Shown here: positions 14,820 through 30,148 of the stretch, in pieces
How the letters are laid out: every line of letters starts with the position of its first letter
Numbering within the stretch: the stretch's first letter is position 1
NCBI RefSeq assembly: GCF_963665355.1
Contig: NZ_OY762229.1
Span: 1,612,001-1,676,000, forward strand
Source of the DNA: an uncultured Desulfobacter sp.
GTDB taxonomy: Bacteria; Desulfobacterota; Desulfobacteria; Desulfobacterales; Desulfobacteraceae
Direction: 5' to 3'
DNA length: 64,000 nt
The notes under the pieces: generated by a model
Databases searched by the model: none
What the model saw: the letters and a program-made list of their open reading frames with translations, nothing else
Told to the model about the DNA's origin: nothing
Position numbers and translations under genes: made by a program

Positions 14820-15210
14820 TATATTCAGCGGATCCCACGGACGAAATCCCGCCACGCGGAGTGAATTCGCCTGTCACCTTCATATATAAAGGGTTTATCA
14901 CAGCCACCAGATCGTCCAAAATTTTATTGACCACATGTTCATAAAACATCCCGACATTCCTGTACTGCATCAGATAATATTTAAGCGATTTCAACTCGAC
15001 CAGATGGGCATCCGGCCGGTACTCAATAATGATGGTCCCGTTGTCGGGCAAACCTGTCATGGGGCAGACCGAAGTATATTCGGGCTGGGTGATTTTAATA
15101 TCAATGCTGCGTTTTGACTTATATGCATAGTCAATAGGTTCCAGCAGATCCGGTGTAATGCTATCTGCGGCAGCCAATGTAAAAGGGGGGGCGTACTGCT
15201 TATTTTTCAT
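14809..15210 (-). CDS. queF: NADPH-dependent preQ0 reductase (7-cyano-7-deazaguanine reductase)
   Basis: A 133-residue unimodular (YkvM-type) QueF. The catalytic Cys is in SVCPMTGLPD and the family NADPH/QueF motif is ELKSLKYYL; Glu and His of the active site are in MFYEHVVN. It reduces the nitrile of preQ0 to preQ1 in queuosine biosynthesis. ATG 15210 is used; a TTG one codon upstream is in frame. No preQ1 riboswitch was recognised in front of it. No other queuosine gene is in the window. Confidence 0.93.
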   Translation of the reverse strand: MKNKQYAPPFTLAAADSITPDLLEPIDYAYKSKRSIDIKITQPEYTSVCPMTGLPDNGTIIIEYRPDAHLVELKSLKYYLMQYRNVGMFYEHVVNKILDDLVAVINPLYMKVTGEFTPRGGISSVGSAEYIKP

Positions 15211-15368
15211 CAATAATCTTTCTTTACAATCCTTTACAATTTTTACCCGAAAATTTCGTCCTAACGGGTTGCTAATTCGTTAAATGTTATGGTAACATAC
15301 GATACTAAAGTATTCAATATGCTTTGAAACAGACTGCTGACAGCAGGGCTGCACAGCAAGTTTAGGCT

Positions 15369-15464
15369 GATAAATATTTGATAGGCCACTTCCGGTGATA
15401 GATAGGAGTGGGGGAAATTATTTATCAAAATATCCTTGACAAGTGGCCTGAAATATACGATAAA
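15369..15464 (+). promoter_or_regulatory. Promoter with interleaved inverted repeats upstream of the coiled-coil protein gene
   Basis: TTGACA (15436-15441) and GATAAA (15459-15464) with 17 bp spacing form a good sigma-70 promoter pointing at the gene at 15609. Overlapping it is a 9-bp inverted repeat AGGCCACTT (15383-15391) / AAGTGGCCT (15441-15449), and a second pair GATAAATA (15369-15376) / TATTTATC (15420-15427) that interleaves with it in pseudoknot order. The gap 15214-15608 has no gene; this structure is the only clear content. Confidence 0.45.
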
Positions 15465-15608
15465 TGCGTTTGCATTCTGCCCAAAGAAAATGACATATTA
15501 AATCCTTATTTTAGCTCGCAATTGTTGATTAAGGAAAGCCAAAGTACATCTTTAGAGCCAAATAAATCTATATATGCGGCATAAGGAGAATCAAGGAGAG
15601 AGGTTATC

Positions 15609-16394
15609 ATGAACGACTTTTTGCAGAGCCTTCGTAACGGCCAGGCCGAGAAGGCGAGAACACCAAAAACAAGAAAAAATTTTGACAATTCGTACTATTC
15701 AAACACATCCAGGTTCAATTCATATGGGGGGTCCGGCTATCCCAATAACAGGCCTTCGCAAATGAAACGCCCCATACCTTCAGGAATTCCCCAGGTACCC
15801 GGGAATCAGAATCCTGAAGAGTCCAATTCCGTTCTTTTAGTGGAAATCCTGGATAATTTAAGCACCCAGATTGATATTCTGGTTAAAAACCAGGAGTATA
15901 TGATCACCATTCAGGAAAGAACTGCGGACCTGCTTCAGCGTCAGGCTGATGCTGTTGATATCATCATGGACCGTCTGAATCTTACCCCCGATCAGGGGGG
16001 GGATATCGCTCCGACGTTTGAGCATCATTATGTATCGTCCCAGGCTCCGGATGAAGAAATTGACGGCACTGTAGAAGATCTGCTCAGAGCGGAAATGGCT
16101 GAGGAAGAACGCCGCAGAACAATGGCTCAGGACGATTTTCAGGGCGCCAATACCAATATTGTAAAAAAACGCAGAAAAATCGTTGCATCACCACCCGCTT
16201 CAGAACCATCAATCGGGGAAGCCGCGGATCTGATGCCCAGAGAAGAGATCATGGATATCATCAACTCCATGCGGGAACAAGGCGCTACCTATGATCAGGT
16301 CGCCAAACATCTCATAGATCTTGGACAGCCGACCTTTTCCGGTCGTGGCGAATGGCATGCCCAGACTATCCACAGGCTGTGTAGCAACAAGTAA
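15609..16394 (+). CDS. Unknown protein: disordered N-terminus, coiled coil, recombinase-like HTH at the C-terminus
   Basis: A 261-residue protein of unrecognised family. Residues 1-75 are basic and polar with many Asn, Ser and Pro. Residues about 76-124 look like a coiled coil (repeated Leu/Ile with Gln: LVEILDNLSTQIDILVKNQ). Residues about 150-205 are charged. Residues 212-258 (REEIMDIINSMREQGATYD onward, ending GEWHAQTIHRLC) resemble the DNA-contacting helix-turn-helix of large serine recombinases, but there is no catalytic domain. It may be a DNA-associated scaffold or regulator. A strong Shine-Dalgarno (AAGGAGA, AAGGAGAG) precedes ATG 15609. It stands alone, bounded by its own promoter and the terminator at 16455. 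Confidence 0.7.
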   Translation: MNDFLQSLRNGQAEKARTPKTRKNFDNSYYSNTSRFNSYGGSGYPNNRPSQMKRPIPSGIPQVPGNQNPEESNSVLLVEILDNLSTQIDILVKNQEYMITIQERTADLLQRQADAVDIIMDRLNLTPDQGGDIAPTFEHHYVSSQAPDEEIDGTVEDLLRAEMAEEERRRTMAQDDFQGANTNIVKKRRKIVASPPASEPSIGEAADLMPREEIMDIINSMREQGATYDQVAKHLIDLGQPTFSGRGEWHAQTIHRLCSNK

Positions 16395-16454
16395 TCACGT
16401 ATTTCCATAATAGCAGCGATCTGTAACTGTTATTTTTAGGATAAAGAAAAAAAG

Positions 16455-16490
16455 AAAAACCGGTGGGATTTATTCCGACCGGTTTTTTTT
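16455..16490. terminator. Bidirectional intrinsic terminator
   Basis: AACCGGT and ACCGGTT form a stem around GGGATTTATTCCG, with an A run before and eight T after, so it reads as a Rho-independent terminator on both strands. It closes the gene at 15609 (plus) and overlaps the 3' end of the HNH gene that ends the hisI-era operon (minus). Confidence 0.85.
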
Positions 16491-16790
16491 ATTACCTTGC
16501 AGTCGTGCCATGTATTCACCCCACTCCGCAGGCAACATCCTTTGCTTTTGAGTATTACATGCCTTGCAGCACGGCACCAGGTTAAATTTTTCCGAGTGTC
16601 CTCCCCGGGAAAGGGGAATCACATGATCCATGGTCAGTTCTTTGGGAGAGAAATTTCCCCCGCAATAGTAACAGACCCCGGACGACAGCTTTCGTTTCCA
16701 CCATTGGCTGCCCCGAAGCTGCCTGGCTTTGGCCCGCTCTTTTTTCAGGTGCGAATCATTGGGAAAAGAAAAGAAATCAATATCTGTCAT
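16470..16790 (-). CDS. Small HNH endonuclease domain protein
   Basis: A 106-residue protein consisting of one HNH domain: Cys pair in VCYYCGG, the DHVIPLSRGG core with the catalytic His, then NLVPCCKACNTQK with the second Cys pair and Asn. The domain binds zinc and a catalytic metal and nicks DNA in known relatives, but many stand-alone copies have unknown targets. It is the last gene of the minus-strand operon, 20 bases after era. Its stop lies inside the terminator stem. Confidence 0.85.
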   Translation of the reverse strand: MTDIDFFSFPNDSHLKKERAKARQLRGSQWWKRKLSSGVCYYCGGNFSPKELTMDHVIPLSRGGHSEKFNLVPCCKACNTQKQRMLPAEWGEYMARLQGNKKNRSE

Positions 16791-16810
16791 GTCGTCCGGG
16801 TTCCTTGTAT

Positions 16811-17695
16811 TTAGTACCCAAATTCACTGAGGCGACGTTCACTGGATACCCAATCCCGGGTCACCTTAACAAACAGTTTAAGTAGAACCTTGGTGCCTAA
16901 CATCTCTTCAATATCCGTGCGTGCACTTGATCCGATTCTCTTGAGCATGCTTCCGTTTTTTCCAATAATAATTCCCTTTTGGGAATCACGGACTAAATGG
17001 ATGCTGGCATGGATCACGATCAGCTTTTTTTCAACCTCAAAAGCATCCACGGTGACGGCGGACGAATAGGGAACCTCCATGCCGGTGAGCCTGAACACCT
17101 TTTCTCGGATAATTTCGCTGACCATATATTTCTCGGAAATATCGGTGAAGGTATCCTCAGGATAAAGTGGCGGCCCTTCAGGAAGTCGGGATTCCACTTC
17201 ATCAAGAAGCAGGTCCACCTGGACGTTTTTCCTTGCCGAAACAGGTACAATGGCTTCAAACCCAAACAGATGCCTGAACATTTCCACCTGTTCATACACC
17301 GCAGATTTTGGGGCCAGATCTATTTTGTTTAGCGCCAGAATTACAGGTTTACGCACGGTTTCAAATCGCTTCAGGATTATCTTTTCCGACGCATAGTTCC
17401 TGGATGCTGCATCCACCATAAAAAGAATCAGATCCACATCGTCCATGGCCTGGACCGCCTGCTCCACGATTCGTTGGTTAAGCAGAGTTGTGCTTTTGTG
17501 AATTCCCGGTGTATCCAGAAACACAATCTGGGCGTGGGGGCGATTTACAATGCCAAGGATCCGATCCCGGGTGGTCTGGGGTTTGCTGGAGGTGATTGAA
17601 ATTTTTTGACCCAGAACCTGATTGAGCAAAGTGGATTTTCCGGCATTGGGTGCACCGATAATACCCACAAATCCCGAGCGGGAGATTTCGGACAT
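16811..17695 (-). CDS. era: GTPase Era
   Basis: A 294-residue protein with the G domain (GAPNAGKS, DTPGIH, NKID, then SARKN) in the first 175 residues and a C-terminal KH RNA-binding domain (GIIIGKNGSMLKRIG). Era binds 16S rRNA near its 3' end and assists 30S maturation. It follows engB by two bases, so two ribosome-assembly GTPases are co-transcribed here. Confidence 0.96.
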   Translation of the reverse strand: MSEISRSGFVGIIGAPNAGKSTLLNQVLGQKISITSSKPQTTRDRILGIVNRPHAQIVFLDTPGIHKSTTLLNQRIVEQAVQAMDDVDLILFMVDAASRNYASEKIILKRFETVRKPVILALNKIDLAPKSAVYEQVEMFRHLFGFEAIVPVSARKNVQVDLLLDEVESRLPEGPPLYPEDTFTDISEKYMVSEIIREKVFRLTGMEVPYSSAVTVDAFEVEKKLIVIHASIHLVRDSQKGIIIGKNGSMLKRIGSSARTDIEEMLGTKVLLKLFVKVTRDWVSSERRLSEFGY

Positions 17696-17697
17696 AT

Positions 17698-18297
17698 CTA
17701 TTCTTCCTTTTGATACCAGTCAATGAGGTTTTGGATTTCATCCCATATGGTTTGGCGACCCTGGCGGGTTTTGGCCGAAAAAAGAATAATTCCGTTTCGA
17801 TCCCGGTTAAACGCGGCACAGGCAGAATCCAGTTGTTTTATCTGTTTGGTTTTTGACAGTTTATCCGCCTTGGTCAAGACCAGAAGACAGGGCATGTTCT
17901 TCGCTTCAAGCCACCGGACCATGTCCAGTTCCTCTTTGCCGGGTTCCCTGCGGATATCCATGAGCAGAATCAGTCCCAGCAAATTTCTTCGTGTATCCAC
18001 ATAAGTTTCAACCATGGGTTGCCATTGTGCCCTGATTTTTTTGGACACTTTAGCATACCCGTATCCGGGCAGATCCACCAGAGAGAGTTCACCATTGATC
18101 AGAAAAAAATTAATCAATTGTGTACATCCGGGCCGGGAACTTGTTTTGACCATATCCCTGCGACTGATCAGGGTGTTGATCAAAGAAGATTTTCCAACAT
18201 TGGATCTGCCCGCAAACGCGATTTCTGAAAAATCGTATTCCGGATATTGAGCGGGCTTTACCGCACTTTTCACAAAATCAACGCCACGGATTATCAT
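17698..18297 (-). CDS. engB: Ribosome-biogenesis GTPase EngB/YsxC/YihA
   Basis: A 199-residue TRAFAC GTPase: GRSNVGKSSLIN (P-loop), DLPGYGYAKV (G3), TKADKL (G4), SAKTRQG (G5). Family members act in 50S assembly. The ATG overlaps the stop of the upstream aminotransferase gene by four bases, and era follows directly. Confidence 0.95.
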   Translation of the reverse strand: MIIRGVDFVKSAVKPAQYPEYDFSEIAFAGRSNVGKSSLINTLISRRDMVKTSSRPGCTQLINFFLINGELSLVDLPGYGYAKVSKKIRAQWQPMVETYVDTRRNLLGLILLMDIRREPGKEELDMVRWLEAKNMPCLLVLTKADKLSKTKQIKQLDSACAAFNRDRNGIILFSAKTRQGRQTIWDEIQNLIDWYQKEE

Positions 18298-19451
18298 GTG
18301 TACTTTTTTAAATACCCTTCCAGACGCTCCATACCTATTTTAAGATTTTCCAGGGAATTGGCATAAGAAAAACGCAGATACCCTTCACCATTGGCTCCAA
18401 AATCAATGCCCGGGGTAACGCCGATGTGTGCCTTTTCCAGGATATCAAACGCCAGGGCATAGGAATCTGTGGAAATATGTTTAAAATTTACAAAAATATA
18501 AAAAGCCCCGGTGGGCTCCACCATAATTGAAAGCCCCATCTCTTTAAGGCGCCTGATCATAAATTTTCTGCGCTCATTATATGTATCACGCATGGTCTGG
18601 GTTTCTTTGTCGGCACCGGTCAATGCCGCAGCGCCGGCCAACTGGGTAATGGAGTTGGCGCAGATAAAGAAGTTTTGCTGCAGCACCTGGAGGGCCCGGA
18701 CAAATTTGGGAGGCGCAATCAGATAGCCCAAGCGAAGTCCTGTCATGGCAAACAGCTTGGAAAAGCCATTAAGCACAAATGCCTGGTCTGTAAACTCCAA
18801 AATGGAGTGGTCTTTCCCTTCATAGGTCAGACCGTGATAAATTTCATCGGAAACAATATACAGGCCGTATTCTTTAGCCACCTCAACAATTTGCCTCATC
18901 CGGGCCTCGGGAATAACGGTGCCCGTAGGATTGGACGGGGAATTGATGAAAATGGCCTTGGTTTTATCTGTGATTTTTTCCCGAATGGCCTGGGGCGTAT
19001 AAACGAAACCGTCCTGCTCATGCACCTTGACAAAAACAGGTTCGCCTTGAACATACCGAATAAAATTGGCGTAGCAGGCATAGTGGGGGTCTGAAACGAT
19101 GACCTCATCGCCGGGATTGAGCAGCGCGCTGAACACCAGAAGCATGGCCGGAGATGTGCCGTTGGTTACAAGAATCTGACCGGGATCCACGGTTGTGCCA
19201 TAGGTACGTTTGTGGTAGTCACTGATGGCCAGGCGCAGCCGGAGGTCTCCCAGGCTGTGGGTGTAACAGGTTTCGTTTTGTTCCAGGGCCTCAACACAGA
19301 CCCGGTTGACGCATTCGGGCACATTAAAGTCCGGCTCACCGATCTCCATGTGAATCACATCAATACCCTGTGCTTCCATCTTATGGATTTTTTCCATCAC
19401 ATCCATAACGATGAAGGGTTTTATCTGTTCACATCTTTTGGCCACACTCAT
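18294..19451 (-). CDS. Class I/II PLP aminotransferase (aspartate aminotransferase-like)
   Basis: A 385-residue fold type I aminotransferase. The PLP lysine is in NGFSKLFAMTGLRLGY, with NGTSPAM (phosphate cup), SPSNPTG, SDEIYHGL and the substrate-binding Arg in YLRFSYA. ATG 19451 is chosen, with AAGGTGAT upstream and only two bases from the hisG stop; the open frame runs back to 19478. Its place in a his operon suggests histidinol-phosphate aminotransferase as one possibility, but the motifs look more like aspartate/aromatic-type enzymes. Co-transcribed with hisI-hisG and the two GTPase genes. Confidence 0.88.
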   Translation of the reverse strand: MSVAKRCEQIKPFIVMDVMEKIHKMEAQGIDVIHMEIGEPDFNVPECVNRVCVEALEQNETCYTHSLGDLRLRLAISDYHKRTYGTTVDPGQILVTNGTSPAMLLVFSALLNPGDEVIVSDPHYACYANFIRYVQGEPVFVKVHEQDGFVYTPQAIREKITDKTKAIFINSPSNPTGTVIPEARMRQIVEVAKEYGLYIVSDEIYHGLTYEGKDHSILEFTDQAFVLNGFSKLFAMTGLRLGYLIAPPKFVRALQVLQQNFFICANSITQLAGAAALTGADKETQTMRDTYNERRKFMIRRLKEMGLSIMVEPTGAFYIFVNFKHISTDSYALAFDILEKAHIGVTPGIDFGANGEGYLRFSYANSLENLKIGMERLEGYLKKYT

Positions 19452-19453
19452 TT

Positions 19454-20329
19454 TCAAATCACCTTGTTTAATGCACATTCAATTATACCTTCAGCCCCTG
19501 CTTTCAACAATTGGGGAACCAGGTCGCGGACCACACTGATTTCAACCACCGTCTCCACGGAAAACCAGTCGGACTGGTAGAGGGGGGCTACGGTGGGGGC
19601 GTTCAGACTTGGCAGAAGGTCAACCACAGCAGGCAGCTTGGATTGAGGCACATTCATCTTAAGCATCACAAGCTTTTCCGCCACAAGGGCTGCCTGGAGC
19701 AGCATGGCAATCTGCTCGATTTTTTCCCGCTTCACCGGATCCTGCCAGGCGGTTCTATTGGCGATGAGCTGGGTGTTGGTTTTCATCATCTCGTGGATGA
19801 CTTTTAAATTATGTGCCCGGATCGTGCTTTCGGTCTCCGTAATCTCCACAATGGCATCAGCCAGGCCGGACACAATCTTGGCTTCCGTGGCCCCCCAGGA
19901 AAACTTCACGTTTACATTAATGTTCCGGGACTGAAAATAGCGTTTTGTAAATTTTACAAGTTCGGTGGAAATGGTTTTGCCTTCCAGCTCCTCAAGGGAG
20001 TTGATGCCGGAATCTCCGGCCACGGCCACCACCCACCGGGCCGGGCGGGAAGATACCTTTGAATAGACAAGATCCGTCACCACATGCACATCGGACTCAT
20101 GTTCAGCGATCCAGTCAAGGCCGGTCAGGCCTGCATCAATAATGCCGGATTCCACATTGATGGACATTTCCTGGGCCCGGCACAGGGCGCATTCAATGGC
20201 GTCGTCATCAATGTCCGGAAAATAACTCCTGCCTTCCACGTTTATTTTCCATCCCGAACGTCTGAACAGATTGACGGTTGCATTCTGCAGACTTCCTTTG
20301 GGAATGCCCAGTTTTAATTTTTTAGTCAT
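19454..20329 (-). CDS. hisG: ATP phosphoribosyltransferase, long form
   Basis: A 291-residue HisG catalysing the first step of histidine synthesis (ATP + PRPP). The catalytic part shows GIPKGSLQ, DAGLTGLDW and the PRPP loop region GLADAIVEITETEST; the C-terminal about 75 residues form the ACT-like regulatory domain of long-form HisG, which binds histidine for feedback inhibition. The start ATG overlaps the hisI stop (TAATG). Confidence 0.95.
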   Translation of the reverse strand: MTKKLKLGIPKGSLQNATVNLFRRSGWKINVEGRSYFPDIDDDAIECALCRAQEMSINVESGIIDAGLTGLDWIAEHESDVHVVTDLVYSKVSSRPARWVVAVAGDSGINSLEELEGKTISTELVKFTKRYFQSRNINVNVKFSWGATEAKIVSGLADAIVEITETESTIRAHNLKVIHEMMKTNTQLIANRTAWQDPVKREKIEQIAMLLQAALVAEKLVMLKMNVPQSKLPAVVDLLPSLNAPTVAPLYQSDWFSVETVVEISVVRDLVPQLLKAGAEGIIECALNKVI

Positions 20330-20703
20330 TATTTATATACCTTTTCCGGGTCAAATACCCGCTGTTCAACTGTTTTAAATTCACCGTTTTCAACAATTGT
20401 ATGAAAACAGCTCTTATATCCTTTGTGACACGCTGCCCCGCCCACCTGGATCACCTTGAGAAGCACGGTGTCATTGTCACAGTCCACCCGAATCTCTTTT
20501 ACTTTTTGAACGTGTCCCGAGGTTTCGCCCTTTTTCCATAGTTTTTTTCTGGACCGGCTGTAGTAAACGGCATTGCCGCTGGCAAGGGTCTCTTCAAAGG
20601 AGGCTTTATTCATATAGGCCAGCATCAGCACCTCGCCTGTATCCGCATCCTGGGCAATGGCGGGGATCAGCCCGCCGGTTTTGTCAAAATCAAGTTCCGG
20701 CAT
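20329..20703 (-). CDS. hisI: Phosphoribosyl-AMP cyclohydrolase
   Basis: A 124-residue HisI without the HisE domain. The metal sites are visible: [10 protein letters not shown] and [13 protein letters not shown]. It opens the adenine ring of PR-AMP in the third step of histidine synthesis. ATG 20703 ([10 protein letters not shown]) is preferred; the open frame runs back to 20748. It is the first gene of the operon, behind a 180-base leader with two hairpins. The remaining his genes are not in the window. Confidence 0.93.
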
Positions 20704-20844
20704 GACTCTTTTGTCTTCCTTATAAGTTCGATAAATTGAAGGCGGCAAAAGCCGCTTGAAGCCGGATCGTTTAGGCGATCTGTCATTTGGAATCGCCTTA
20801 ATCTTTTACATATTTCATCCGGCCGACCATATCAAAACTTAAAT

Positions 20845-20872
20845 ATTTAATGGTTTGGTCGCAAAATGTCAA
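20845..20872 (-). promoter_or_regulatory. Likely sigma-70 promoter of the hisI-era operon
   Basis: On the minus strand TTGACA (20872-20867) is followed after 16 bp by TTAAAT (20850-20845). Between it and hisI lie two hairpins, one with arms AGGCGAT/ATCGCCT and one with AGCGGC/GCCGCC, neither followed by a T run. No His-rich leader peptide or T-box was recognised. Confidence 0.45.
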
Positions 20873-20885
20873 TTTGAAAATAGGA

Positions 20886-21938
20886 TCAGGACTGGTCGAA
20901 GAAAAAATTTTGGTCAAAAACAAGGTGTTTTCCATTTCGAACCTTTTCCCTCAAAAGGCTCAGCTTCCTATCCAGATCAGCCAGACAGGCAGCGCTTTGT
21001 TTCTCTGCATCCAAGGTTTTGACTACATCGGCAATGCCGCCGTTTTTTATCACAATGCGCCGGTCGCAGGACAGAGCGAGTAATGGATCATGGGTGGCAA
21101 GTAGCACAATTTTTTCTTTGTCAAGCAGCAGTGAAATCGCTTTAACACGGTCTATGCCCGCATTTTCAATCTCATCAATCAACACCACAGGGGAGGCGCT
21201 TAGGTAGGCTACATCAGCAATCATCAATGCCCGGGACTGACCGCCGGAAAGGGATGTGATGGGTGTGCCCAGGGAGAAGGGTTCTCCCGCGAGCATAACC
21301 GCAGCCTGGTAGATCTGCGTGATTTTGTCAGGAATATTGTCGATCAGGCGGCTTTCTGCGTGCATCTGCAAAAAGGCCTCCACAGTCAGGTCCATGACAA
21401 AATTCATATTTTGGGAGAGTTGGGCCACCAGTCTGAATTCGCCGGAAAAACGGGACTGGGCATCAGGTGCTTTGCCGTTGGGCAATACTTTCCGACCCGA
21501 TGGGGTGTCCTCCTGGGCCAGACACTCAATATCGGACAGGAGCTGGCTTTTGCCGGAGCCGGTGGGGCCCACCACACTGACGACCTCGCCGGGGACCAGG
21601 GTGAGATTCATGGTTTCCGGGCACCCGTTTTTATCAAATCCGGCCCCGATGACCAGGTAATCCATTCTGTCATGAATCTTATGCCGGCACTGCTCCATCT
21701 TGGCAATAAATTCCAGAAGCTGTACGATTAGGGCTTCATGGTCCAGGTGGAATTGTGACAAATGGTCGAAAGACAAGCTTTTGATGAGCATAGCCAGCGT
21801 ATTGTGCCCGGAAAAAGGATCAATCTCGAGGGAGGTGAAAAAATCAACCAGGTATGGATATTTTTCCAGCAGCACATTAAGCTCAAGGTCCAAAATATCC
21901 ACGCCAGGGCTATCCCTTTTGTTTATTTCCCCCATCAT
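20886..21938 (-). CDS. Soluble ABC ATPase with an N-terminal DUF1858-like helical domain
   Basis: A 350-residue protein. Residues about 12-80 resemble the small DUF1858/ScdA-like helical domain; residues about 95-310 are an ABC nucleotide-binding domain with Walker A GPTGSGKS (124-131), Q-loop Gln (about 173), signature LSGGQ (230-234), Walker B VVLIDE (251-256) and the switch His (283). There is no membrane segment, and no permease gene nearby. The start overlaps the GTPase stop by four bases. The closing 40 residues are charged. Together with the two genes upstream it forms a permease-less ABC/PBP/GTPase set; the role is unknown (inference: assembly or delivery of a metal or cofactor in the cytoplasm). 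Confidence 0.8.
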   Translation of the reverse strand: MMGEINKRDSPGVDILDLELNVLLEKYPYLVDFFTSLEIDPFSGHNTLAMLIKSLSFDHLSQFHLDHEALIVQLLEFIAKMEQCRHKIHDRMDYLVIGAGFDKNGCPETMNLTLVPGEVVSVVGPTGSGKSQLLSDIECLAQEDTPSGRKVLPNGKAPDAQSRFSGEFRLVAQLSQNMNFVMDLTVEAFLQMHAESRLIDNIPDKITQIYQAAVMLAGEPFSLGTPITSLSGGQSRALMIADVAYLSASPVVLIDEIENAGIDRVKAISLLLDKEKIVLLATHDPLLALSCDRRIVIKNGGIADVVKTLDAEKQSAACLADLDRKLSLLREKVRNGKHLVFDQNFFFDQS

Positions 21939-22654
21939 GTGAAATCCATTGTTTTGACATTGCCGATCTGACTGTCAGGCCCGATCCTGGTCTCCCCCAG
22001 GCAATAGGAACATAAGGCTGCCGGCATAGTGAAACGAAGACGCATGCCGTTTAATGACTCAACGGCGGGTGCTGTTTGAAAATGGCCTGCAGCCAGAAGG
22101 CAGCCCTGACCCGTCAACCCATTGACCGGCAACACCGAAGCTTTTGCGTTGGCCTGGCGGACACGGAAGGTAAAAACCTCCCGTTCAGCCTGTGATACAA
22201 TATCTCCTTTGGTCAGTACAACAAGGTCCGCATTTTTCAACATAGGGCCGATTTTCCTGGGTGTATGCACACCACTTAAATGATCAATGACGCATACGGC
22301 CAGAACGCCTTTAATATGGGGCGAACACCGGTTGCAAAGCCCTGCACTTTCACTGATTAACAGGTCAAAACCCTGGCGGATGCCCCACTGCACACAATCC
22401 TCTATGTTGGAAATAAAAAAATGATCAGGGCACAGCCCCCCGGCCAGCCCTTTTTTCACCGGCAGTCCAGTAAGTTCATATCTTTTATGGTCATCCCCGG
22501 TAAGGCAGTCAAACTTAATGATACCAATACGAAACCCCTGCTTTAAGAGCACTGTTGCCGTATGCAGTATCAAAGATGTTTTGCCGCTTGACGGCGGCCC
22601 TGCCACCGTCACCAGCCTGATAAACGGCCCTGAGTGTTTCAATATCTGATTCAT
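21935..22654 (-). CDS. HypB/UreG-like P-loop GTPase with CxxC motifs
   Basis: A 239-residue SIMIBI-class GTPase. Walker A GPPSSGKTS is at residues 19-27, the switch/Walker B region ISESAG at 100-105, and the guanine-specificity motif LTKGD at 147-151. Cysteines are placed at likely metal-binding points: C75, the pair C107/C110 just after the switch Gly, and a C-terminal CSYC at 215-218. HypB, UreG and CooC relatives load nickel or other metals into enzymes. No hydrogenase, urease or CODH gene is in the window. Five bases downstream of the PBP gene and overlapping the ABC gene. Confidence 0.8.
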   Translation of the reverse strand: MNQILKHSGPFIRLVTVAGPPSSGKTSLILHTATVLLKQGFRIGIIKFDCLTGDDHKRYELTGLPVKKGLAGGLCPDHFFISNIEDCVQWGIRQGFDLLISESAGLCNRCSPHIKGVLAVCVIDHLSGVHTPRKIGPMLKNADLVVLTKGDIVSQAEREVFTFRVRQANAKASVLPVNGLTGQGCLLAAGHFQTAPAVESLNGMRLRFTMPAALCSYCLGETRIGPDSQIGNVKTMDFT

Positions 22655-22659
22655 GGCAA

Positions 22660-23868
22660 TCAGGGCGCCAGAGGCATGAAAATTTTATCAATTTCAAGAT
22701 TTAAGACCGGAAGATCATGCTGTCTTAGGAAATCCCAGCCCAGCCATTTTAACGGTTTTGCCTGGATATCTGCGGCCACGTCAGCATGGGGGACGGGAAA
22801 TCCCGCACCGGCAAGAATCTGTGCAAGCTGACTTCCCACAAGATAATCAAGAACCGGTTTGAGCTCCTCTTTTTTTTCAGGTTTGACCTGGAGAATCACC
22901 GGGCTGGCAAGGGCCCCGTCATCCGGCCATATCACCTTTATACGTTCCTGATGCCGGATACGTTCCGCAAAAAAGGCCGGCATGACATAAAGCGCACCCG
23001 GGCCGTTATTATCAATTCTGTTGACCATCTGTGCCGGGTGAAGTCCTTCAAGCACATTGTTCGCCAGGGCTTCCAACCCCTGGTTGCCAAAATCTTTAAA
23101 AGTAGGCAGAAGAACAGCATGGCAATAAAAGCCGTCTCCTCCCCTGATGATCAGGCTTTTCTCCCAAGCAGGATTAAGACAATCTTCCCAGGTCTTCGGC
23201 AGAGCTCTATTTTCCAATTTATCAAGGTTGGCAACCACCACTAAAGGGTTTACACACAGAATGGTATATTCATTTTTGGGGTCTAAAATCTGAGCCTCTG
23301 AAAAATTAGAACCGGCATTGAGTGCTCCATAACCTGAAAAATAGCCCGGAGCCACAAAACGGTTATAAAACCTATGGCCTAGAAAAACATTAAAGTCAGC
23401 AGACACAATAATATCCGGTAGTTCATTTTTGGATTCAATGGTGTCAACATAGGAATAATAAGAAAGTTCCTGATTAACATTTCCCTCCACCGCCGATTGA
23501 ATGCCGATACCCTGCGTCGCCTGAAGTTTGTTTAAGAATTGGGAAAACGCCCGGCTGAACGGCATTTTCAGGCCACAAGGCATAAGTCCCAGAAAGCTTA
23601 AGTCTTTCTGTGCCTCCATTGAGGCCAGTCCGGGGGTGTCAATTACAGGGTTTTGGGTGATTGCACCCTCAAGCATCCCAATGAATGCATTGATATTTAT
23701 AAGTCGACTTCTTAAGGCTGTGCCCAAGGTCAAAAACGGGGCCAGGACATGCATGGCATCGTCACTGACCAGGGCGCCTAAACCACTGGACTCGAAAACT
23801 GAACGTGTTTGGGGGTAAAGCTGAATAATTTCATATAGTTTTAAGTCTGGATGAATATGGGTTGGCAT
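22660..23868 (-). CDS. PBP2-fold 'substrate-binding' protein with N-terminal DUF1858-like domain and no signal peptide
   Basis: A 402-residue protein. Residues 5-75 resemble a DUF1858 domain (DLKLYEIIQLYPQTRSVFES). Residues about 80-390 resemble type 2 periplasmic binding proteins of the ferric-ion/thiamine class: a DIIVSADFNVF segment, LCVNPLVVVANLDKLENR, LPKTWEDCLNPAWEKSLII, and a C-terminal GAGFPVP. There is no signal peptide, lipobox or Tat motif, so it should be cytoplasmic, unlike ordinary binding proteins. AAGGAGG precedes the start. First gene of the three-gene operon with the GTPase and the ABC ATPase. Confidence 0.78.
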   Translation of the reverse strand: MPTHIHPDLKLYEIIQLYPQTRSVFESSGLGALVSDDAMHVLAPFLTLGTALRSRLININAFIGMLEGAITQNPVIDTPGLASMEAQKDLSFLGLMPCGLKMPFSRAFSQFLNKLQATQGIGIQSAVEGNVNQELSYYSYVDTIESKNELPDIIVSADFNVFLGHRFYNRFVAPGYFSGYGALNAGSNFSEAQILDPKNEYTILCVNPLVVVANLDKLENRALPKTWEDCLNPAWEKSLIIRGGDGFYCHAVLLPTFKDFGNQGLEALANNVLEGLHPAQMVNRIDNNGPGALYVMPAFFAERIRHQERIKVIWPDDGALASPVILQVKPEKKEELKPVLDYLVGSQLAQILAGAGFPVPHADVAADIQAKPLKWLGWDFLRQHDLPVLNLEIDKIFMPLAP

Positions 23869-24089
23869 TATTTTCTGCGCCTCCTTTATTGTTCCTCATA
23901 ATCCCAGGGAATCTTCCCGAAACGGATGACAGCAATTCCAATGCCAGGTAAAACAAAAGCAGCCAATATGTGATAATTTCATGGATTGAAATACTTAATT
24001 AAACATAAATACTGTCATTATCCTCAATTTAAATTTCAACGCTTAAAAAGCAGAAAACACCCGGAAGTACAATATTGTCATATAAAGCC

Positions 24090-24240
24090 TTTGATAGATA
24101 CATATTTGTCACCTGCCTGTTTCTGGGTGTGCAAATCGCATCGTTTAAAGTTGTTTGATATTTGGTATCAAGGTATACGCAGGTGCCATCGGCTATTGCT
24201 ATCCTTATCCTAATTTGATAAAAGCAAGTATTTTATCAAA
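24090..24240. promoter_or_regulatory. Repeated TTTGATA/TATCAAA sites in the divergent gap before the PBP1A gene
   Basis: The gap 23869-24263 holds a half site TTTGATA (24090-24096), a palindrome TTGATA-TTTGG-TATCAA (24155-24171) and a hairpin/palindrome TTTGATAAAA (24214-24223) / TTTTATCAAA (24231-24240). They could be operators for one factor. No gene or RNA was recognised in the rest of this gap. Confidence 0.35.
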
Positions 24241-24263
24241 AAACAATACTATTTCGGAACCTT

Positions 24264-26669
24264 ATGACAAAACAACAAAGTCGCACTCAGATTCTGAAGA
24301 AGCGAAGCAAGAAAAAAGAAAAAAGTATATGGATTTCTCTTTTCATATGGGTGCTTACCCTGTCTGTCGTTGCCGTTGTTGCCGGATGTGCAGCCATTGC
24401 CGCAGGATTTTTCTATCTTAGCCAGGACCTTCCCCAAATCAATACACTCAAGGACTATCGCCCGGCCATTGTGACCAATGTATATTCCGATGATGGCAGA
24501 AAAATAGGCGAGTTTTACAAAGAACGCAGAATAGTCGTTCCTTTGTCCGACATGCCTGCAAACCTGGTTAATGCTTTTGTGGCGGCCGAAGATTCAAGGT
24601 TCAGGGAACATCCCGGTATTGATATAAAATCCATTGTCAGGGCGTTTATAAAAAATTTTATGGCCGGCACTATTGTCCAGGGCGGGTCAACCATTACCCA
24701 GCAGGTGACTAAATCTTTTCTCCTTACCCCGGAGAGGACTTATGAACGCAAACTTAAAGAGGTTATTTTATCCTATAAAATTGAAAAAAAGCTTTCCAAG
24801 GATGACATCCTCTTTCTTTATTTGAATCAGATCTATCTGGGACACGGCGCTTACGGTGTTGAAGCGGCTTCTGAAAATTATTTCGGTAAACATGTCAAGG
24901 ATCTGACCCTGGCTGAATGTGCCATGCTGGCAGGCCTGCCCCAGGCACCCAGCCGGTACAGCCCTTTTCAGAATCCGGAGCTGGCCAGGCAGCGCCAGGT
25001 TTATACTCTGAACCGTATGAAAGAAGAGGGGATGATCTCCAATCTGGAAGCCACCGAGGCCATGGGAGCCAGGCTGGACATTAAATCTCGAAAAAACTGG
25101 TTCATTGAGCGGGTTCCCTGCTACACGGAGCATGTCAGACGGTATGTTGAAAAAAAATACGGAAAAGATATGCTTTACACCCAAGGCTTAAACATTCATA
25201 CCGCCGTGAATATTGAACTGCAAAAAATAGCCCGGTCCGCAGTCAATAAAGGCCTGTCAGATCTGGATCAACGTTGTGGATACCGAGGCCCCGAAAAAAA
25301 TATATCAGCGCTTCAGGAGGAAGGTTTCAGTCGCATCATCGCCGATGAATTAAACGGCAGCCGTCTGGCTAAAGACGAAGTATATCAAGGCGTTGTCCTG
25401 AATGTGGACGATGACAACAAAATTACCCATGTGAGGGTTGGCAATGTCGCAGGTATTCTCCGGCTAACGACCATGACATGGGCCAGAAAACCAGACCCCC
25501 AAATACCCTATTGGTCTGCCAGGATCACTAAACCCTCCCAGGCCCTAAAAATTGGAGATGTCATCTATGTGAAAGTCCTTGGGGAAATGGCTGCTGACAT
25601 GCAATATGAATTTGCCCTTTACCAGGAACCCATTGCTCAATCAGCACTTCTGAGCATTGAAGCGGAAACCGGCCATGTTAAAGCCATGATCGGCGGAAGA
25701 GATTTCAAGGACTCCCAGTTCAACCGGGCATTTCAGTCGAGACGTCAGCCCGGCTCCGCATTCAAGCCTATACTTTACGCGGCAGCCCTTGACAAAGGAT
25801 ATACGCCAGCCTCTGTCATTATTGACTCTCCTGTGGTCTTTGAAGACAAGCTGAACGACAGAGTGTGGAAACCTCATAACTATGCGGAGAAATTTTACGG
25901 CCCCACCCTGCTTCGTCAGGCTCTGACCACATCCAGAAATATTGTTACCATCAAAATTTTGCAGGATATTGGCATAGATTATGTGATCGGTTATGCAAGA
26001 AGGCTTGGAATCACCTCTCCCATTGCCAGAAACCTGTCCATATCCCTGGGGTCTTCAGGGGTATCTCTGTTTGAACTGACCAAGGCATATTCAGTATTTT
26101 CCAATCTGGGGTACCTGATTGAGCCGGTATTTATCACCGAAATTTATGACCGGGACCACAAGCTTCTGGAATCCTCCAAACTGATTCGCAAGAAGGTCAT
26201 TGACATGGGTACGGCCTATCTTATGACCAGTATGCTGGAAAGCGTGGTACAGGCTGGAACCGCCCAGAGAATCAGAGCCTTGAACCGGCCGGCGGCAGGT
26301 AAAACCGGTACCACCAACGATCTTCACGATGCCTGGTTCATGGGCTTTACCCCAAGGTACACCACAGGGGTATGGGTGGGGCTTGACAGGGAAGCGCCAC
26401 TTGGCTGGAAAGAAACTGGTTCCCGGGCTGCAAGTCCCATCTGGCTGGATTACATGCAGCAAGCCCTGGAGGGCAAATCTGTACGAGAGTTTACAGTTCC
26501 CGAAGGTATCATACGTGTTAAAATAGATGCCGATACCGGCCTTCTGCCGATTGCCCAGAGCCAGCACACGATTTTTGAGTGCTTTAAAGAGGGGACAGAG
26601 CCTACACAGTACACCCAGAGACCGGATGAGGTGTTGAGCACAGAAGATTTGTTCAAAGAAGGTTTTTAG
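24264..26669 (+). CDS. mrcA: Penicillin-binding protein 1A (bifunctional transglycosylase/transpeptidase)
   Basis: An 801-residue class A PBP that polymerises and cross-links peptidoglycan. One N-terminal membrane anchor (about 22-52), a GT51 domain (EDSRFREHPGID with catalytic Glu, GGSTITQQVTK, KIEKKLSKDDIL), an OB-like insertion (about 370-460) and a transpeptidase domain with SxxK (GSAFK), SxN (TSRN) and KTG (GKTGTTND). All catalytic motifs are intact. It stands alone with its own long upstream region; the next operon begins 620 bp downstream. Confidence 0.95.
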   Translation: MTKQQSRTQILKKRSKKKEKSIWISLFIWVLTLSVVAVVAGCAAIAAGFFYLSQDLPQINTLKDYRPAIVTNVYSDDGRKIGEFYKERRIVVPLSDMPANLVNAFVAAEDSRFREHPGIDIKSIVRAFIKNFMAGTIVQGGSTITQQVTKSFLLTPERTYERKLKEVILSYKIEKKLSKDDILFLYLNQIYLGHGAYGVEAASENYFGKHVKDLTLAECAMLAGLPQAPSRYSPFQNPELARQRQVYTLNRMKEEGMISNLEATEAMGARLDIKSRKNWFIERVPCYTEHVRRYVEKKYGKDMLYTQGLNIHTAVNIELQKIARSAVNKGLSDLDQRCGYRGPEKNISALQEEGFSRIIADELNGSRLAKDEVYQGVVLNVDDDNKITHVRVGNVAGILRLTTMTWARKPDPQIPYWSARITKPSQALKIGDVIYVKVLGEMAADMQYEFALYQEPIAQSALLSIEAETGHVKAMIGGRDFKDSQFNRAFQSRRQPGSAFKPILYAAALDKGYTPASVIIDSPVVFEDKLNDRVWKPHNYAEKFYGPTLLRQALTTSRNIVTIKILQDIGIDYVIGYARRLGITSPIARNLSISLGSSGVSLFELTKAYSVFSNLGYLIEPVFITEIYDRDHKLLESSKLIRKKVIDMGTAYLMTSMLESVVQAGTAQRIRALNRPAAGKTGTTNDLHDAWFMGFTPRYTTGVWVGLDREAPLGWKETGSRAASPIWLDYMQQALEGKSVREFTVPEGIIRVKIDADTGLLPIAQSQHTIFECFKEGTEPTQYTQRPDEVLSTEDLFKEGF

Positions 26670-26774
26670 TACAAAGAAGAAAATTCGTTTTAAAAAAAAG
26701 GATTTTCGCCAATAGGTACACTCTATTGCCGGTGAAATAATTTTGTCTTTTTACTACGATTAAAACATTTGAAG

Positions 26775-26815
26775 AATAGCTTGGTATCCCCGGTTATAGG
26801 GGATACCAAGCTATT
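26775..26815. repeat. Perfect 17-bp hairpin downstream of the PBP1A gene
   Basis: AATAGCTTGGTATCCCC (26775-26791) pairs perfectly with its complement (26799-26815) around a 7-base loop. There is no T run on either side, so it is not a standard terminator; it may be a REP/MITE-like palindrome or an mRNA 3'-end stabiliser. It lies 106 bp after the mrcA stop in a 618-bp gap that has no convincing gene. Confidence 0.6.
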
Positions 26816-27100
26816 ACTACAATTTCCAGGAGAAAACGATTTAACTCCTGACTCTGATAAAAGTAATTATTTTTCTGATTCTCAGCTGTGGTTCAATTGT
26901 AAAAACAAAAAAAATTTTAACATGACGAATATTGAAATTACTATTTCTCTCAAAACCAAATCTCATAGTTTTAACGTCAAAAAATATGATTGACAAACCC
27001 TGAGAAACCGGATTAACTTTAAGCAGTCTTGCTTGATAAAAAAAACCTTTTTTACATATATCAAAAGCACATTAATTTATTAGGAAAATATTTTTAAGGA

Positions 27101-27163
27101 AAGCTTGGAAATCGAAGCTTAATCTTTATATGAAAGATCTGTGTAACCTACACAGATCTTTCA
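27101..27163. repeat. Hairpin pair in the leader of the pilus operon
   Basis: A perfect 15-bp stem TGAAAGATCTGTGTA (27131-27145) / TACACAGATCTTTCA (27149-27163) with a 3-base loop, preceded by two AAGCTT sites (27101-27106, 27115-27120) facing each other. After it comes a GC-richer stretch (27170-27240) with further short stems, including GCTGAT/ATCAGC. This may be a structured 5' leader for mshI; no known riboswitch consensus was recognised. Confidence 0.5.
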
Positions 27164-27287
27164 ACCTTCGTGGTGGGCCGAGCCTGGCAGCTGATATGTC
27201 AGATCAGCCCATGGCTGTTAGACGAAAACAATATCCCGGTGAACTTTTAAGGTATATAACCTAATTGAACCATTCAAAGAGGTTACT

Positions 27288-29069
27288 GTGACAGATTATA
27301 GTGAGTTGAATTCAACAGAGAAGCTTTTAGATTCCATCCGGACCGCCACCCCGTCCCAGACGGCAGCCAAGGAAATCGCTTCTCCCCTGCCCGAATCCAA
27401 GGGTAGCACATCCCTTAAAGGTAATGCCTTGATCAATCTTTGTGCAGGGGCATATCTGGCGGGAACTTGTTTGTCTCTGGTGTTGACCGGCGAGGCCGGG
27501 CGCGGGGGCGAAAAAGAGATCGTTAAGTGGCAGATTATTCCCTATCCAGAGAATATGGGAATGAAACGTGAAGGATTTCCGGCCTTTCTCCGATCTGAAC
27601 TGACCTCTTTTCTATCTGGTTATAAAAATGTTTCTATCTGGACGGCCATAGAGACCGGGGATGTAAAACTAAGACAATTAACACTACCCAACCTGCCGGA
27701 TGCCAAATTGGCCAATGCTGCAATGTGGGCACTGAAGAAGGAAATTGAAATAGACCCGGTCAATGAAATTTTTGACTATGAGTTTATTTCGGATGTTCAT
27801 GTCAACGGTGTTAAAAAGAAAAACGTGGTTGCATTTTCCGGCAACCGAAACACTGTAAATGAATTGAAAACCCTGTTCAAATCAGCCGGATTTTCCCTGG
27901 ATGGTATCACGGCGACTCCCTTTGCCATCCAAAACTGTATTCTTGCCGGACAGCCGGACACCGGCGGACAGCCTGTGGTTGTTGTCAATATACGGCGGTA
28001 CCGGTCTGAAATTTTTTGCATATCAAACCAGGGTGTGTTGGTGGCAAGAAGTATTAAAACCGGCTCATTCAGCCTGGCGGAACCTTTCATAGAATCCGGC
28101 ATCGTGGACGAAAATATCACGGATATTCCTAATTTTCTGGCCTCAAGAGAACGGCTGGATGACCCCGGTTATGAAGATCTGAAGGCATCCACCGAACGAC
28201 TTTTAGGTAAAATTCAGCGCACCGGCGAATACTGTTCCAATATGTTCCTGGAAAATGAGCCGGTTGCAAAATATTATTTTTTCGGAGAAACAGACGACAG
28301 CCCGGCCCTTATAAATTTTTACGAAGGAATGATACCGAATCGGACAAGTCTTTTTTCGCCATTTCAAGATAGTCAGGATACCATCGGTCTGGCCATGCCC
28401 GCCAGCGCAGCAGACAGAAACAGAGTCATCCCGACTTTGGGTATTGCCCTGTCCAACAAAACCATTACCCCCAATTTCCTTTATACACATAAGGAAAAAG
28501 CCATTACCGCAAAAGCCCAAAAGATCAATATCGGAATAATAGCTGCAGGGATTGCAGGTCTTCTGATCTGCTGCGGGGTATGGTTATGGCTTCACCAGAA
28601 GGAAAACAGTGAAATCGTCAGGCTTATGGCTGTTAAAGCCCAGCTTTCCCAATATGACACCCCAATCACAAAAGAGGTGCTGGATAAAAAAATTCTTCAA
28701 GCCAAGAAGAAAATGAAGATGATTCGTCAATATGCCTCTGACTATGCCTCCTTATCCGTTATCAGTGAATTATGCACATTGACGCCTGAAAATATAGAGA
28801 TTCTTACCCTGGATGCAGGTCTTGCAGAACCGTCCAATACAGAAAACGAGAATAAAAATGAAAGAAAAGTCGGCGAACGTGGACGACATATGCGCCTTCA
28901 AGGCGTTGTATTGGCAGAATTCACTGCCTTGGAATCTACTTTGACCGGGTTTGTCATGGCGCTGAGTGAATCTTCCATTTTCGGTAATATTGAGATTGAA
29001 AACAAAAAAATAGTTCAGAAAAAAAACGGTAATATTCTCAACTTTACTGTGGATATGGAGATTTTCTGA
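27288..29069 (+). CDS. mshI: MSHA/type IV pilus assembly protein, PilM-PilN-like fusion (MshI)
   Basis: A 593-residue protein from GTG 27288 (GAGG upstream). Residues about 45-400 look like the actin-like PilM ATPase fold (LPNLPDAKLANAAMWALKKEI is the PilM-type segment); a single membrane helix follows at about 414-434 and then a periplasmic PilN-like coiled/ferredoxin-like part. Separate PilM and PilN in other type IV pili are joined here, as in MshI but longer. It would form the cytoplasmic-to-periplasmic alignment platform with the next two proteins. First gene of the pilus operon; its stop overlaps the next start. Confidence 0.8.
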   Translation: MTDYSELNSTEKLLDSIRTATPSQTAAKEIASPLPESKGSTSLKGNALINLCAGAYLAGTCLSLVLTGEAGRGGEKEIVKWQIIPYPENMGMKREGFPAFLRSELTSFLSGYKNVSIWTAIETGDVKLRQLTLPNLPDAKLANAAMWALKKEIEIDPVNEIFDYEFISDVHVNGVKKKNVVAFSGNRNTVNELKTLFKSAGFSLDGITATPFAIQNCILAGQPDTGGQPVVVVNIRRYRSEIFCISNQGVLVARSIKTGSFSLAEPFIESGIVDENITDIPNFLASRERLDDPGYEDLKASTERLLGKIQRTGEYCSNMFLENEPVAKYYFFGETDDSPALINFYEGMIPNRTSLFSPFQDSQDTIGLAMPASAADRNRVIPTLGIALSNKTITPNFLYTHKEKAITAKAQKINIGIIAAGIAGLLICCGVWLWLHQKENSEIVRLMAVKAQLSQYDTPITKEVLDKKILQAKKKMKMIRQYASDYASLSVISELCTLTPENIEILTLDAGLAEPSNTENENKNERKVGERGRHMRLQGVVLAEFTALESTLTGFVMALSESSIFGNIEIENKKIVQKKNGNILNFTVDMEIF

Positions 29070-29644
29070 TGGCGAAAAAGGAAAAAAAAAACACTGGAAA
29101 ACTTTCCTCTACGACATTTAGCCTTATTGTGATTTGTATCGTGGGGGTCCTTGCAGTTGCCCTGGGCCTTCTTTACCCCAAAGTTAAGAATATTCAGAAT
29201 ATAAAAGCAGACTGGCTTGCCAACACCATTCGTCTGGAAGAGCAGAAACGTTTTTATCCGGCATATGCCCAGGCCTGCAACCTGGCGGACACACAATTTG
29301 CTAATCTCCTGCCCCTTCCGGAACGTAAGGCAATTGCCAGGGAAGAGATTTCTGGTTTGGGCGAGGTCTTTAAGCAGATTGCCGAAAAAGAGGGTGTAGC
29401 CCTGTCGGAAAACCGAATGGATACAGAATCCTTTAAAACGGGTGCTGAATTGATTTCCATGAATATAACTTACAAAGGAGAATTCCTGCATTTCAGGCCC
29501 TGTTTAATTGAACTCATCAAACTGCCTTGTTTCAACAGCCTTGAGAATGTTGAAATCCGGACGGATAGAGACAATGTCAGGTATTGCAGCATCAGATGCA
29601 AGATCGCCATAGAAAATAATGATGTTTCTAAAAATCAAGGGTAG
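29069..29644 (+). CDS. mshJ: PilO/MshJ-like inner-membrane pilus assembly protein
   Basis: A 191-residue protein: short basic cytoplasmic N-terminus, one membrane helix at about 18-38, coiled segment, then a periplasmic domain (about 110-185) of PilO size. Sequence identity to known PilO is not obvious, so the call rests on topology, size and position between the PilM/N-like and PilP-like genes. The ATG overlaps the mshI stop (TGATG). Confidence 0.72.
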   Translation: MAKKEKKNTGKLSSTTFSLIVICIVGVLAVALGLLYPKVKNIQNIKADWLANTIRLEEQKRFYPAYAQACNLADTQFANLLPLPERKAIAREEISGLGEVFKQIAEKEGVALSENRMDTESFKTGAELISMNITYKGEFLHFRPCLIELIKLPCFNSLENVEIRTDRDNVRYCSIRCKIAIENNDVSKNQG

Positions 29645-29653
29645 ATAGAAACA

Positions 29654-30148
29654 ATGAACAAGAGAGAAGTTATCATCATTGTGTTTGCAGGTTTGCTGGT
29701 TGTATTTGGATTGCTGGATTTTTTTGTTCTGGGTGAAAAGACAGACCGTACGGATGACGAAAAAATTCAAGCTGCCATTATAACTGCTGAAGAAGCCCAA
29801 AATACAGCTCACGAAGCCATTGCATCATTGAAAAAAGGTAACGGAGGCAGCGATCTGGCATTTCTTAAGGAAAAAGCTGAAAGCATATGGCCCAGGGACC
29901 CTTTTATTTTATATAGCGGAGATCCGGATGAAAGGGATGCGACTGAAATCGAAAATCTGCCGGAGATGGTCTATTCCGGGTTTATCCAGTTGGGTGAAAA
30001 TGTTCTGGGCGTGATAAACAACATGGAATACAGCATCGGCGACCTTGTTATTGACATCGGGTGCAAGGTGCTTCAGATCACCCCCACAAAGGTGACGTTA
30101 CTGACCCAGGCCGACAGACAGCTTACACTGTATTTACAGGAAGATTAA
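29654..30148 (+). CDS. mshK: PilP/MshK-like pilus assembly protein
   Basis: A 164-residue protein with an N-terminal membrane helix (about 5-25), a flexible helical linker and a C-terminal beta-rich PilP/GspC-like domain (about 105-164: VYSGFIQLGENVLGVINN, then VIDIGCKVLQITPTKVTLL). PilP-type proteins connect the inner-membrane platform to the secretin. It directly precedes the secretin gene, the expected order. Confidence 0.75.
   Translation: MNKREVIIIVFAGLLVVFGLLDFFVLGEKTDRTDDEKIQAAIITAEEAQNTAHEAIASLKKGNGGSDLAFLKEKAESIWPRDPFILYSGDPDERDATEIENLPEMVYSGFIQLGENVLGVINNMEYSIGDLVIDIGCKVLQITPTKVTLLTQADRQLTLYLQED

Follow-up and report, generated by a model that had tools for sequence, protein, structure and literature searches.

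A permease-less operon for a PBP-fold protein, a HypB/UreG-like GTPase and an ABC ATPase in Desulfobacter: a candidate metallochaperone system with a tentative link to molybdenum or tungsten

The 64,000-nucleotide stretch of DNA analysed here (the window) originates from an uncultured Desulfobacter sp. (assembly GCF_963665355.1, contig NZ_OY762229.1, positions 1,612,001 to 1,676,000) and contains a tight minus-strand operon of three genes, called the trio below. The genes encode a protein of the periplasmic-binding-protein type 2 fold (PBP), a GTPase related to HypB and UreG and a soluble ATP-binding cassette (ABC) ATPase (Table 1). The first two genes are separated by a gap of 5 bases and the last two overlap by 4 bases, just as an initial interpretation made without searches (the sequence-only reading) had described. 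It had also found no membrane protein in the operon, and an inspection by eye of the window's open reading frames at 15000-30000 likewise revealed no permease. The trio recurs in other genomes, and the results support a real and widespread system resembling nucleoside-triphosphatase metallochaperones.

Table 1. Positions of the trio genes and of associated features in the window
Feature	Position	Strand	Details
Gene 1: PBP2-fold protein (SBP_bac_6) with N-terminal DUF1858	22660..23868	(-)	402 aa, predicted cytoplasmic
Gene 2: HypB/UreG-type (G3E) GTPase	21935..22654	(-)	239 aa; C75-P-D-H78, C107-x-R-C110, C215/C218 invariant
Gene 3: soluble ABC ATPase	20886..21938	(-)	350 aa; N-terminal part remotely DUF1858-like
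DUF1858 domain of gene 1 (residues 5-63)	23680..23856	(-)	Pfam PF08984, E 1.5e-7, 31.8 bits, cut-off 32.2
Sigma-54-type (-24/-12) element TGGCAT-N5-TTGCT	23931..23946	(-)	78 nt before gene 1 start codon

The product of the middle gene belongs to the Pfam family cobW/HypB/UreG (E 8.3e-12). Both curated equivalog cut-offs, for HypB (39.9 versus 121.2 bits) and for UreG (30.2 versus 204.2 bits), are far out of its reach, so it is a relative, not a member, of either group. The predicted fold is UreG/HypB-like and its best fold matches are nickel chaperones; matches of the GTPase profile to RecA were ignored as repeats of a single P-loop match. The motifs listed in Table 1, including the CxxC pairs at residues 107/110 and 215/218 already pointed out by the sequence-only reading, are conserved in 64 of the 64 GTPases compared. 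In a profile alignment, the CPDH and LCxRC stretches fall on the part of HypB (2hf8) that contains its metal site. With a HypB/UreG G-domain fold and conserved cysteine and histidine residues both present, the protein is, judging from sequence and model, a relative of the G3E metallochaperones. Unlike HypB and UreG, it has the additional invariant residues C110 and C215/C218, its constant companion is an ABC ATPase, and a PBP often joins the two.

The PBP matches SBP_bac_6 with 222.6 bits (E 6.9e-66). A PBP profile covering the DUF1858 part matches 2fi0 (E 1e-6), and a match to the iron-sulfur (Fe-S) repair protein ScdA is not significant (E 0.55). The predicted fold of the PBP is closest to that of ferric-binding proteins, with the metal-citrate binder MctA also matched; a single-sequence search found no close relative in the PDB, just a weak match to an iron-binding protein (E 0.32). 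Cys98 and His277, each starting a helix, are invariant in the group with the gene order PBP-GTPase-ABC (PGA). The absence of a signal peptide, claimed at the outset, was borne out by a hydropathy test with a threshold of our own: the N-terminus of the window PBP is low in hydrophobicity, and the threshold is passed by 2 of 44 PBPs versus 17 of 18 FecB-type controls.

The third protein matches ABC_tran (E 5.4e-13). Its LSGGQ and DExENAG motifs, the latter an unusual Walker B, are invariant in 62 ABC proteins. The sequence-only reading had assigned DUF1858-like N-termini to both the PBP and the ABC protein, which might then dock on a common partner. The assignment holds for the PBP, just under the Pfam cut-off, and is only remote for the ABC protein, in which Pfam finds no DUF1858. 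Weak DUF1858 matches appear in four of the eight ABC N-termini tested (the window's own, one of the eight, is unmatched), and a single one, from L101, lies below E 0.01 (E 7.4e-5). A comparison of 14 ABC with 18 PBP N-termini by hhalign gave a probability of 60% and E 8.6e-5 (reversed control, E 0.15). The ABC N-terminus thus seems remotely DUF1858-like, and these values lend weak support to the idea of shared docking.

A census with a seven-sequence GTPase profile (E 1e-20 or better) found the GTPase in 15 of 296 Desulfobacterota genomes and in 44 of 299 genomes of Bacillota, the phylum of Clostridium sp. E02. Eleven of the 18 other Desulfobacter genomes examined contain it, the D. vibrioformis protein being 91% identical to that of the window, and the window genome (G000) holds a second copy with 50% identity at locus L029. 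An ABC gene adjoins the GTPase gene on the same strand in 62 of 64 cases; the remaining two are at contig ends. In class A, which comprises 45 of these 62 pairs, a PBP is present in 42, with either the PGA order (30) or the order GTPase-ABC-PBP (GAP; 12), and one of the three pairs without a PBP is cut by a contig end. The other 17 pairs (class B) contain no PBP according to our own PBP profile, and a CGLCG Fe-S protein (PF04060, tested on L121) occurs in 17 of the 18 class B loci. Locus L119, in genome G579, is intermediate; its PBP-like downstream gene was missed by the PBP profile, so that it is filed under class B in tallies of loci, and under class A in tallies of genomes. The pairwise distances of GTPases and ABC proteins are correlated, with a Spearman coefficient of 0.86 for all pairs and of 0.65 inside class A. 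Recurring as it does in more than one phylum, the unit is not a product of chance. Class B loci L063, L064 and L121-L135 represent a sister system found in many Clostridia, sometimes near genes which, by eye, we take to be Mrp-, IscU-, NifX- or NifS-like.

The set compared consists of 64 GTPases from 63 loci (the window, L025-L030, L050-L065 and L096-L135). Left aside were the Desulfobacter loci L001-L012 and L021-L024, which are close relatives; L013, from the same genome as L065; the weak HypB/UreG-type matches L014-L020; L031, L032, short duplicates L033-L049, L066-L095; and 7 of the 49 Bacillota GTPase matches, all low-scoring and class B-like. Neighbours were counted as matches anywhere in a locus, mostly about 10 kb on each side, several loci being cut by contig ends. 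The names modABC, hypDE, suf, NapA/formate dehydrogenase, iscR/nifS, nifV and FecE were given by eye from the sequences. A search for recurrent neighbours in other genomes, which the sequence-only reading had proposed as a check, brought up nitrogenase, FecBCD, hcp and items related to molybdenum (Mo) and tungsten (W).

A link with nitrogenase is seen in Desulfobacterota. True NifH and a nitrogenase alpha chain, each over its cut-off, are present in all 13 class A genomes of this phylum in the sample of 296; NifH was found in 3 of 20 non-carriers (Fisher p 1e-6). These 20 head the list of genomes that gave no match, 12 of them belong to the window's order, and they are not a random sample. The two class B Desulfobacterota genomes have no NifH over the cut-off. 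Among Desulfobacter carriers, 9 of 10 tested have NifH, the test covering 10 of the 12. In L025, L026, L029, L030, L051 and L054, nif or anf genes share the locus with the trio. L025 contains nifE-, nifN- and nifB-type genes, a ferredoxin and a GNAT protein followed by the trio and then by a presumably nifV-like gene, L026 unites nifH, nifD/K-like genes and nifB with the trio, and in L030 the trio adjoins a nifB-like gene whose 332 bits narrowly miss the cut-off of 343.65. Two nitrogenase gene clusters are present in the window genome, the main one (nif) at L136 and L140 and an Fe-only one (anf) at L029, where the second trio copy stands beside anfHDGK-type genes (AnfD 1030.7 bits, cut-off 873.8; AnfG 170.5 bits, cut-off 124.7).

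The window operon is preceded by a sigma-54-type element. Its pattern occurs twice in the window, versus 0.34 expected, and at least twice in 7 of 100 shuffles; the stronger support for a promoter is its conservation in Desulfobacter, where 12 upstream regions are of sufficient length to contain the element and 9 of them keep it, at 76-80 nt. Among the misses, a single further change is seen in L004, whereas the element is gone from L003 and L021, which belong to one genome. A site of this kind also precedes anfH of L029; the main nifH of G000 has no exact match to the pattern upstream. Since nif genes usually have sigma-54 promoters, nitrogen control of the window operon is plausible by analogy. 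The second exact site in the window, TGGCATGTTTTTTGCT at 56655-56670 (+), may be due to chance.

Evidence pointing to Mo or W comes from an Rfam scan that covered all 45 class A and 10 of the 18 class B loci. The molybdenum cofactor (Moco)/tungsten riboswitch (RF01055) was found in four class A loci (L097, L110, L111 and L120) and in none of the 10 class B loci scanned. L097 has one riboswitch 0.2 kb before the GTPase of a GAP unit and a second 0.8 kb before the called start of a FecB-like gene, after which come FecCD and a second trio. In L110 the riboswitch is at the start of the PBP, and in L111 and L120, from two related genomes, it precedes a FecB-like gene. Of 27 Bacillota trio operons, 2 have a riboswitch on their own strand no more than 500 nt upstream, versus 0.011 expected from genome counts (p 6e-5), the 500-nt limit having been chosen after the matches were seen. 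Genes for ModE-type helix-turn-helix (HTH) proteins adjoin the trios of L112 and L053 (50.5 and 56.4 bits, under the curated cut-off of 98.5). In L055, an HTH-PBP_like regulator is located 3 kb from the trio and is followed by genes that we take to be modABC-like. At Rfam gathering thresholds, no RNA element was found at the window copy. Neither the nitrogenase link nor that to Mo/W was part of the sequence-only reading; both were first seen in the present analysis.

Because of the positions of the riboswitches and ModE-type regulators, together with the nitrogenase linkage, Mo or W is the best reading of the cargo. The trio may accordingly be proposed to act as a GTP- and ATP-driven cytoplasmic Mo/W metallochaperone which, in Desulfobacter, would serve nitrogenase; we give this reading a probability of roughly 0.45, a little short of even odds.

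A number of observations weigh against it. Nitrogenase does not require the trio, as some diazotrophs lack it: five of the six Desulfobacter genomes without the trio still have NifH, and these five are without NifQ, like all carriers but one. In Bacillota, just 6 of the 23 class A genomes have true NifH, and of 36 non-carriers, taken at even handle-number steps, 3 have it (p 0.13); four of the 17 class A genomes below the cut-off carry a weaker NifH-like protein, and 4 of 21 class B genomes have true NifH. One trio copy, that in L029, adjoins an Fe-only nitrogenase, and seven Bacillota genomes have hcp no more than 5 kb from the trio, as confirmed by position (an eighth match, in L060, may represent a related enzyme, as Hcp of G298 is encoded elsewhere). 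The Moco riboswitch is missing from 41 of the 45 class A loci, including the window's. At the level of genomes, using 23 of the 36 Bacillota non-carriers for riboswitches, MoaA and Hcp, 18 of 23 non-carriers have a riboswitch, more than the 14 of 23 among class A Bacillota, and none was found in the 13 Desulfobacterota of class A. Class A shows no enrichment of MoaA (31 of 36 genomes, versus 17 of 23 non-carriers, p 0.31), the miss in G000 being uncertain as 23 of 34 first-look candidates were scored. Three carriers (G562, G359 and G579) have no detected NifH and no detected MoaA, although G579 does have a Moco riboswitch. The genome-level link to Mo/W is thus weak. The notion that every carrier needs Mo is weakened by the same three genomes, and that of a system devoted to nitrogenase only was dropped, 17 of the 23 class A Bacillota having no NifH over the cut-off.

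What the analysis establishes directly is the conservation of the operon, the predicted folds, the invariant residues, where the promoter and riboswitches lie, and the linkage to nitrogenase in Desulfobacterota; the metal, its binding, the direction of transfer, the target and the mechanism are what we infer in the following scheme. The PBP-fold protein would stay in the cytoplasm and bind the incoming metal species in its cleft, with C98 and H277 as possible ligands in the PGA group. The GTPase would hold the metal by C75/H78 and C107/C110 and perhaps by C215/C218. The ABC ATPase, having no membrane partner, much like SufC, would drive transfer between the PBP and the GTPase or release to the target, and the DUF1858-type N-terminal domains perhaps mediate this action. 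The cargo metal would most likely be Mo or W. The window copy, with its sigma-54-type promoter, would most likely supply nitrogenase cofactor assembly where NifQ is absent. A cytoplasmic device driven by ATP and GTP for a metal centre was the core of the sequence-only reading. The fold of the GTPase, its invariant ligands, its pairing with the ABC protein and the location of part of the loci near nitrogenase or Mo/W items speak for such a device, while its metal, cargo and mechanism are still matters of interpretation. Broader and more tentative is the picture of a 'transporter without a membrane', in which the PBP, the ABC ATPase and the HypB-like GTPase capture a cytoplasmic Mo/W species and load it into the cofactor of nitrogenase, and also into Mo/W enzymes or others with complex clusters. 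Its parts would have been recruited from import and nickel-chaperone families, it would be one of the metal donors of NifQ-less anaerobic diazotrophs, and the widespread class B sister, with neither permease nor PBP, would serve another cluster.

The most serious rival, by reason of hcp, the Fe-only nitrogenase and the carriers without MoaA, is the same device with iron or an Fe-S unit as its cargo, used in delivery or repair for nitrogenase, the hybrid cluster protein (Hcp) and Suf/Isc clients. Besides the hcp neighbours, Hcp is enriched in class A genomes (35 of 36 versus 15 of 23 non-carriers, p 0.0015); it is, though, widespread in such anaerobes anyway, as its presence in 19 of 21 class B genomes and in those 15 non-carriers indicates. 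The ferric-like model of the PBP points to iron as well, and yet the same match list contains binders of other ligands with this fold. Further hints are the ScdA match, below significance, the Fe-S protein of class B loci, what is presumably a suf-like operon after the L028 trio, and genes in the class B locus L064 that we take by eye to be IscR-like and NifS-like. The riboswitches immediately ahead of trio operons argue the other way, as do the ModE-type regulators next to two trios, and we consider iron unlikely, if well worth keeping in view. A Moco riboswitch is also located near hcp in G368:C1:2528059-2530673 and near an hcp fragment in G476:C4:63747-64617, two related genomes; it is possible that Hcp is tied to Mo/W control there.

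An ordinary ABC importer whose permease is encoded elsewhere, the ABC protein powering a FecCD-type permease, would account for other neighbours. Among the 45 class A loci, 14 encode FecB-like proteins and 11 encode FecCD (10 have class I methyltransferases and 8 have Crp regulators), and in L097 FecB, FecCD, PBP, GTPase and ABC genes form one run behind the riboswitch, with no separate FecE. No FecCD match was found in the other 34 class A loci, however, and in L029, L051, L054, L107 and L109 there is a separate ATPase that we take to be FecE-like. The missing signal peptide, the unusual Walker B and the lack of a permease near the window copy also tell against an importer, and we know of no importer with a GTPase of this kind. 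We therefore regard it as improbable; the earlier statement that the trio is no ordinary importer is favoured by these points, the 11 loci with FecCD being what qualifies it. The trio PBP differs from FbpA, FutA, SfuA and MctA in lacking a signal peptide, in its DUF1858 domain and in the invariant Cys98 and His277. MolBC-A is FecCD-like. The FecB-FecCD neighbours behind Moco riboswitches could be molybdate importers of the MolBC-A/FecBCD type (PMC4031551); the trio itself is permease-less, with an ABC ATPase unlike the FecE-like ones encoded in those loci.

Several loci carry additional genes. In L111 (11378-17256) and L055 (5616-12177), the trio is accompanied by methyltransferases, a radical SAM protein (AmmeMemoRadiSam-like in L111, 127.8 bits, cut-off 220) and FecB-like binding proteins, possibly a cluster for the uptake or processing of a metal chelate. 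L113 (3233-4642) encodes a protein combining a Copper-amine-oxidase N-domain with a phosphonate/NMT1-type binding domain, as tested on L113; its relatives occur in L114, L115, L117 and L118, and these loci have NitT-type permeases and GAP-order trios. A presumably hisI-like gene adjoins the trio both in the window (20329-20748) and in L050 (8070-8465), another Desulfobacterota locus, in each case by eye.

Insertion of nickel or cobalt, as performed by HypB and UreG, is a quite doubtful alternative: the nickel chaperones are the best fold matches of the GTPase and genes near the L056-L058 trios look by eye hypD/hypE-like, but these were the sole sign of a hydrogenase or urease context, the curated HypB and UreG cut-offs are far missed, and the recurrent neighbours are FecBCD, nitrogenase, hcp and Mo/W items. 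Equally hard to credit is a sensor, with the cytoplasmic PBP as detector of a metal or ligand and both NTPases passing the signal to a regulator or enzyme, since Pfam finds no DNA-binding or signalling domain in the three trio proteins and the invariant cysteines and HypB/UreG fold point to metal transfer, despite the Crp-type regulators and the occurrence of cytoplasmic PBP-like domains in HTH regulators such as that of L055.

Among described systems, SufC in SufBCD is, according to PMC9164220, a permease-less ABC ATPase in metallocofactor assembly, and in this respect the trio ABC protein would resemble it. The trio protein has a GTPase partner and an N-terminal domain of its own, and no SufB/SufD-like gene is present in the window operon, the search being confined to it. 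NifQ is the Mo donor for the iron-molybdenum cofactor and nifQ is lacking in Paenibacillus, Clostridium, cyanobacteria and Frankia, as stated in PMC4761190. The trio may share a role in Mo supply, but no sequence relation to NifQ was found (profile PF04891 is absent from the Pfam matches of the trio proteins at E up to 1). NifQ was detected in 1 of 45 NifH-positive genomes tested, G210, where it coexists with the trio, and NifQ-less diazotrophs exist both with and without the trio. The trio is not a general substitute for NifQ because NifQ-less, NifH-positive Desulfobacter without it exist, and the idea of a general replacement was dropped. A published description of the trio was not found in the literature searched, which included few subscription journals; like the sequence-only reading, which knew of no such system, we find that it looks undescribed.

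How metals are inserted into complex enzymes such as nitrogenase is known only in part, particularly for anaerobes without NifQ. Tied to nitrogenase in Desulfobacterota and to riboswitches in some Clostridia, the trio is a three-gene candidate that makes the question of the Mo donor testable. It also suggests accessory genes for the engineering of nitrogen fixation; to our knowledge, trio genes have not been transplanted for this purpose. If the proposed reading is true, the trio would represent a new architecture, in which an intracellular ABC ATPase and a binding protein work together with a GTP-driven metallochaperone.

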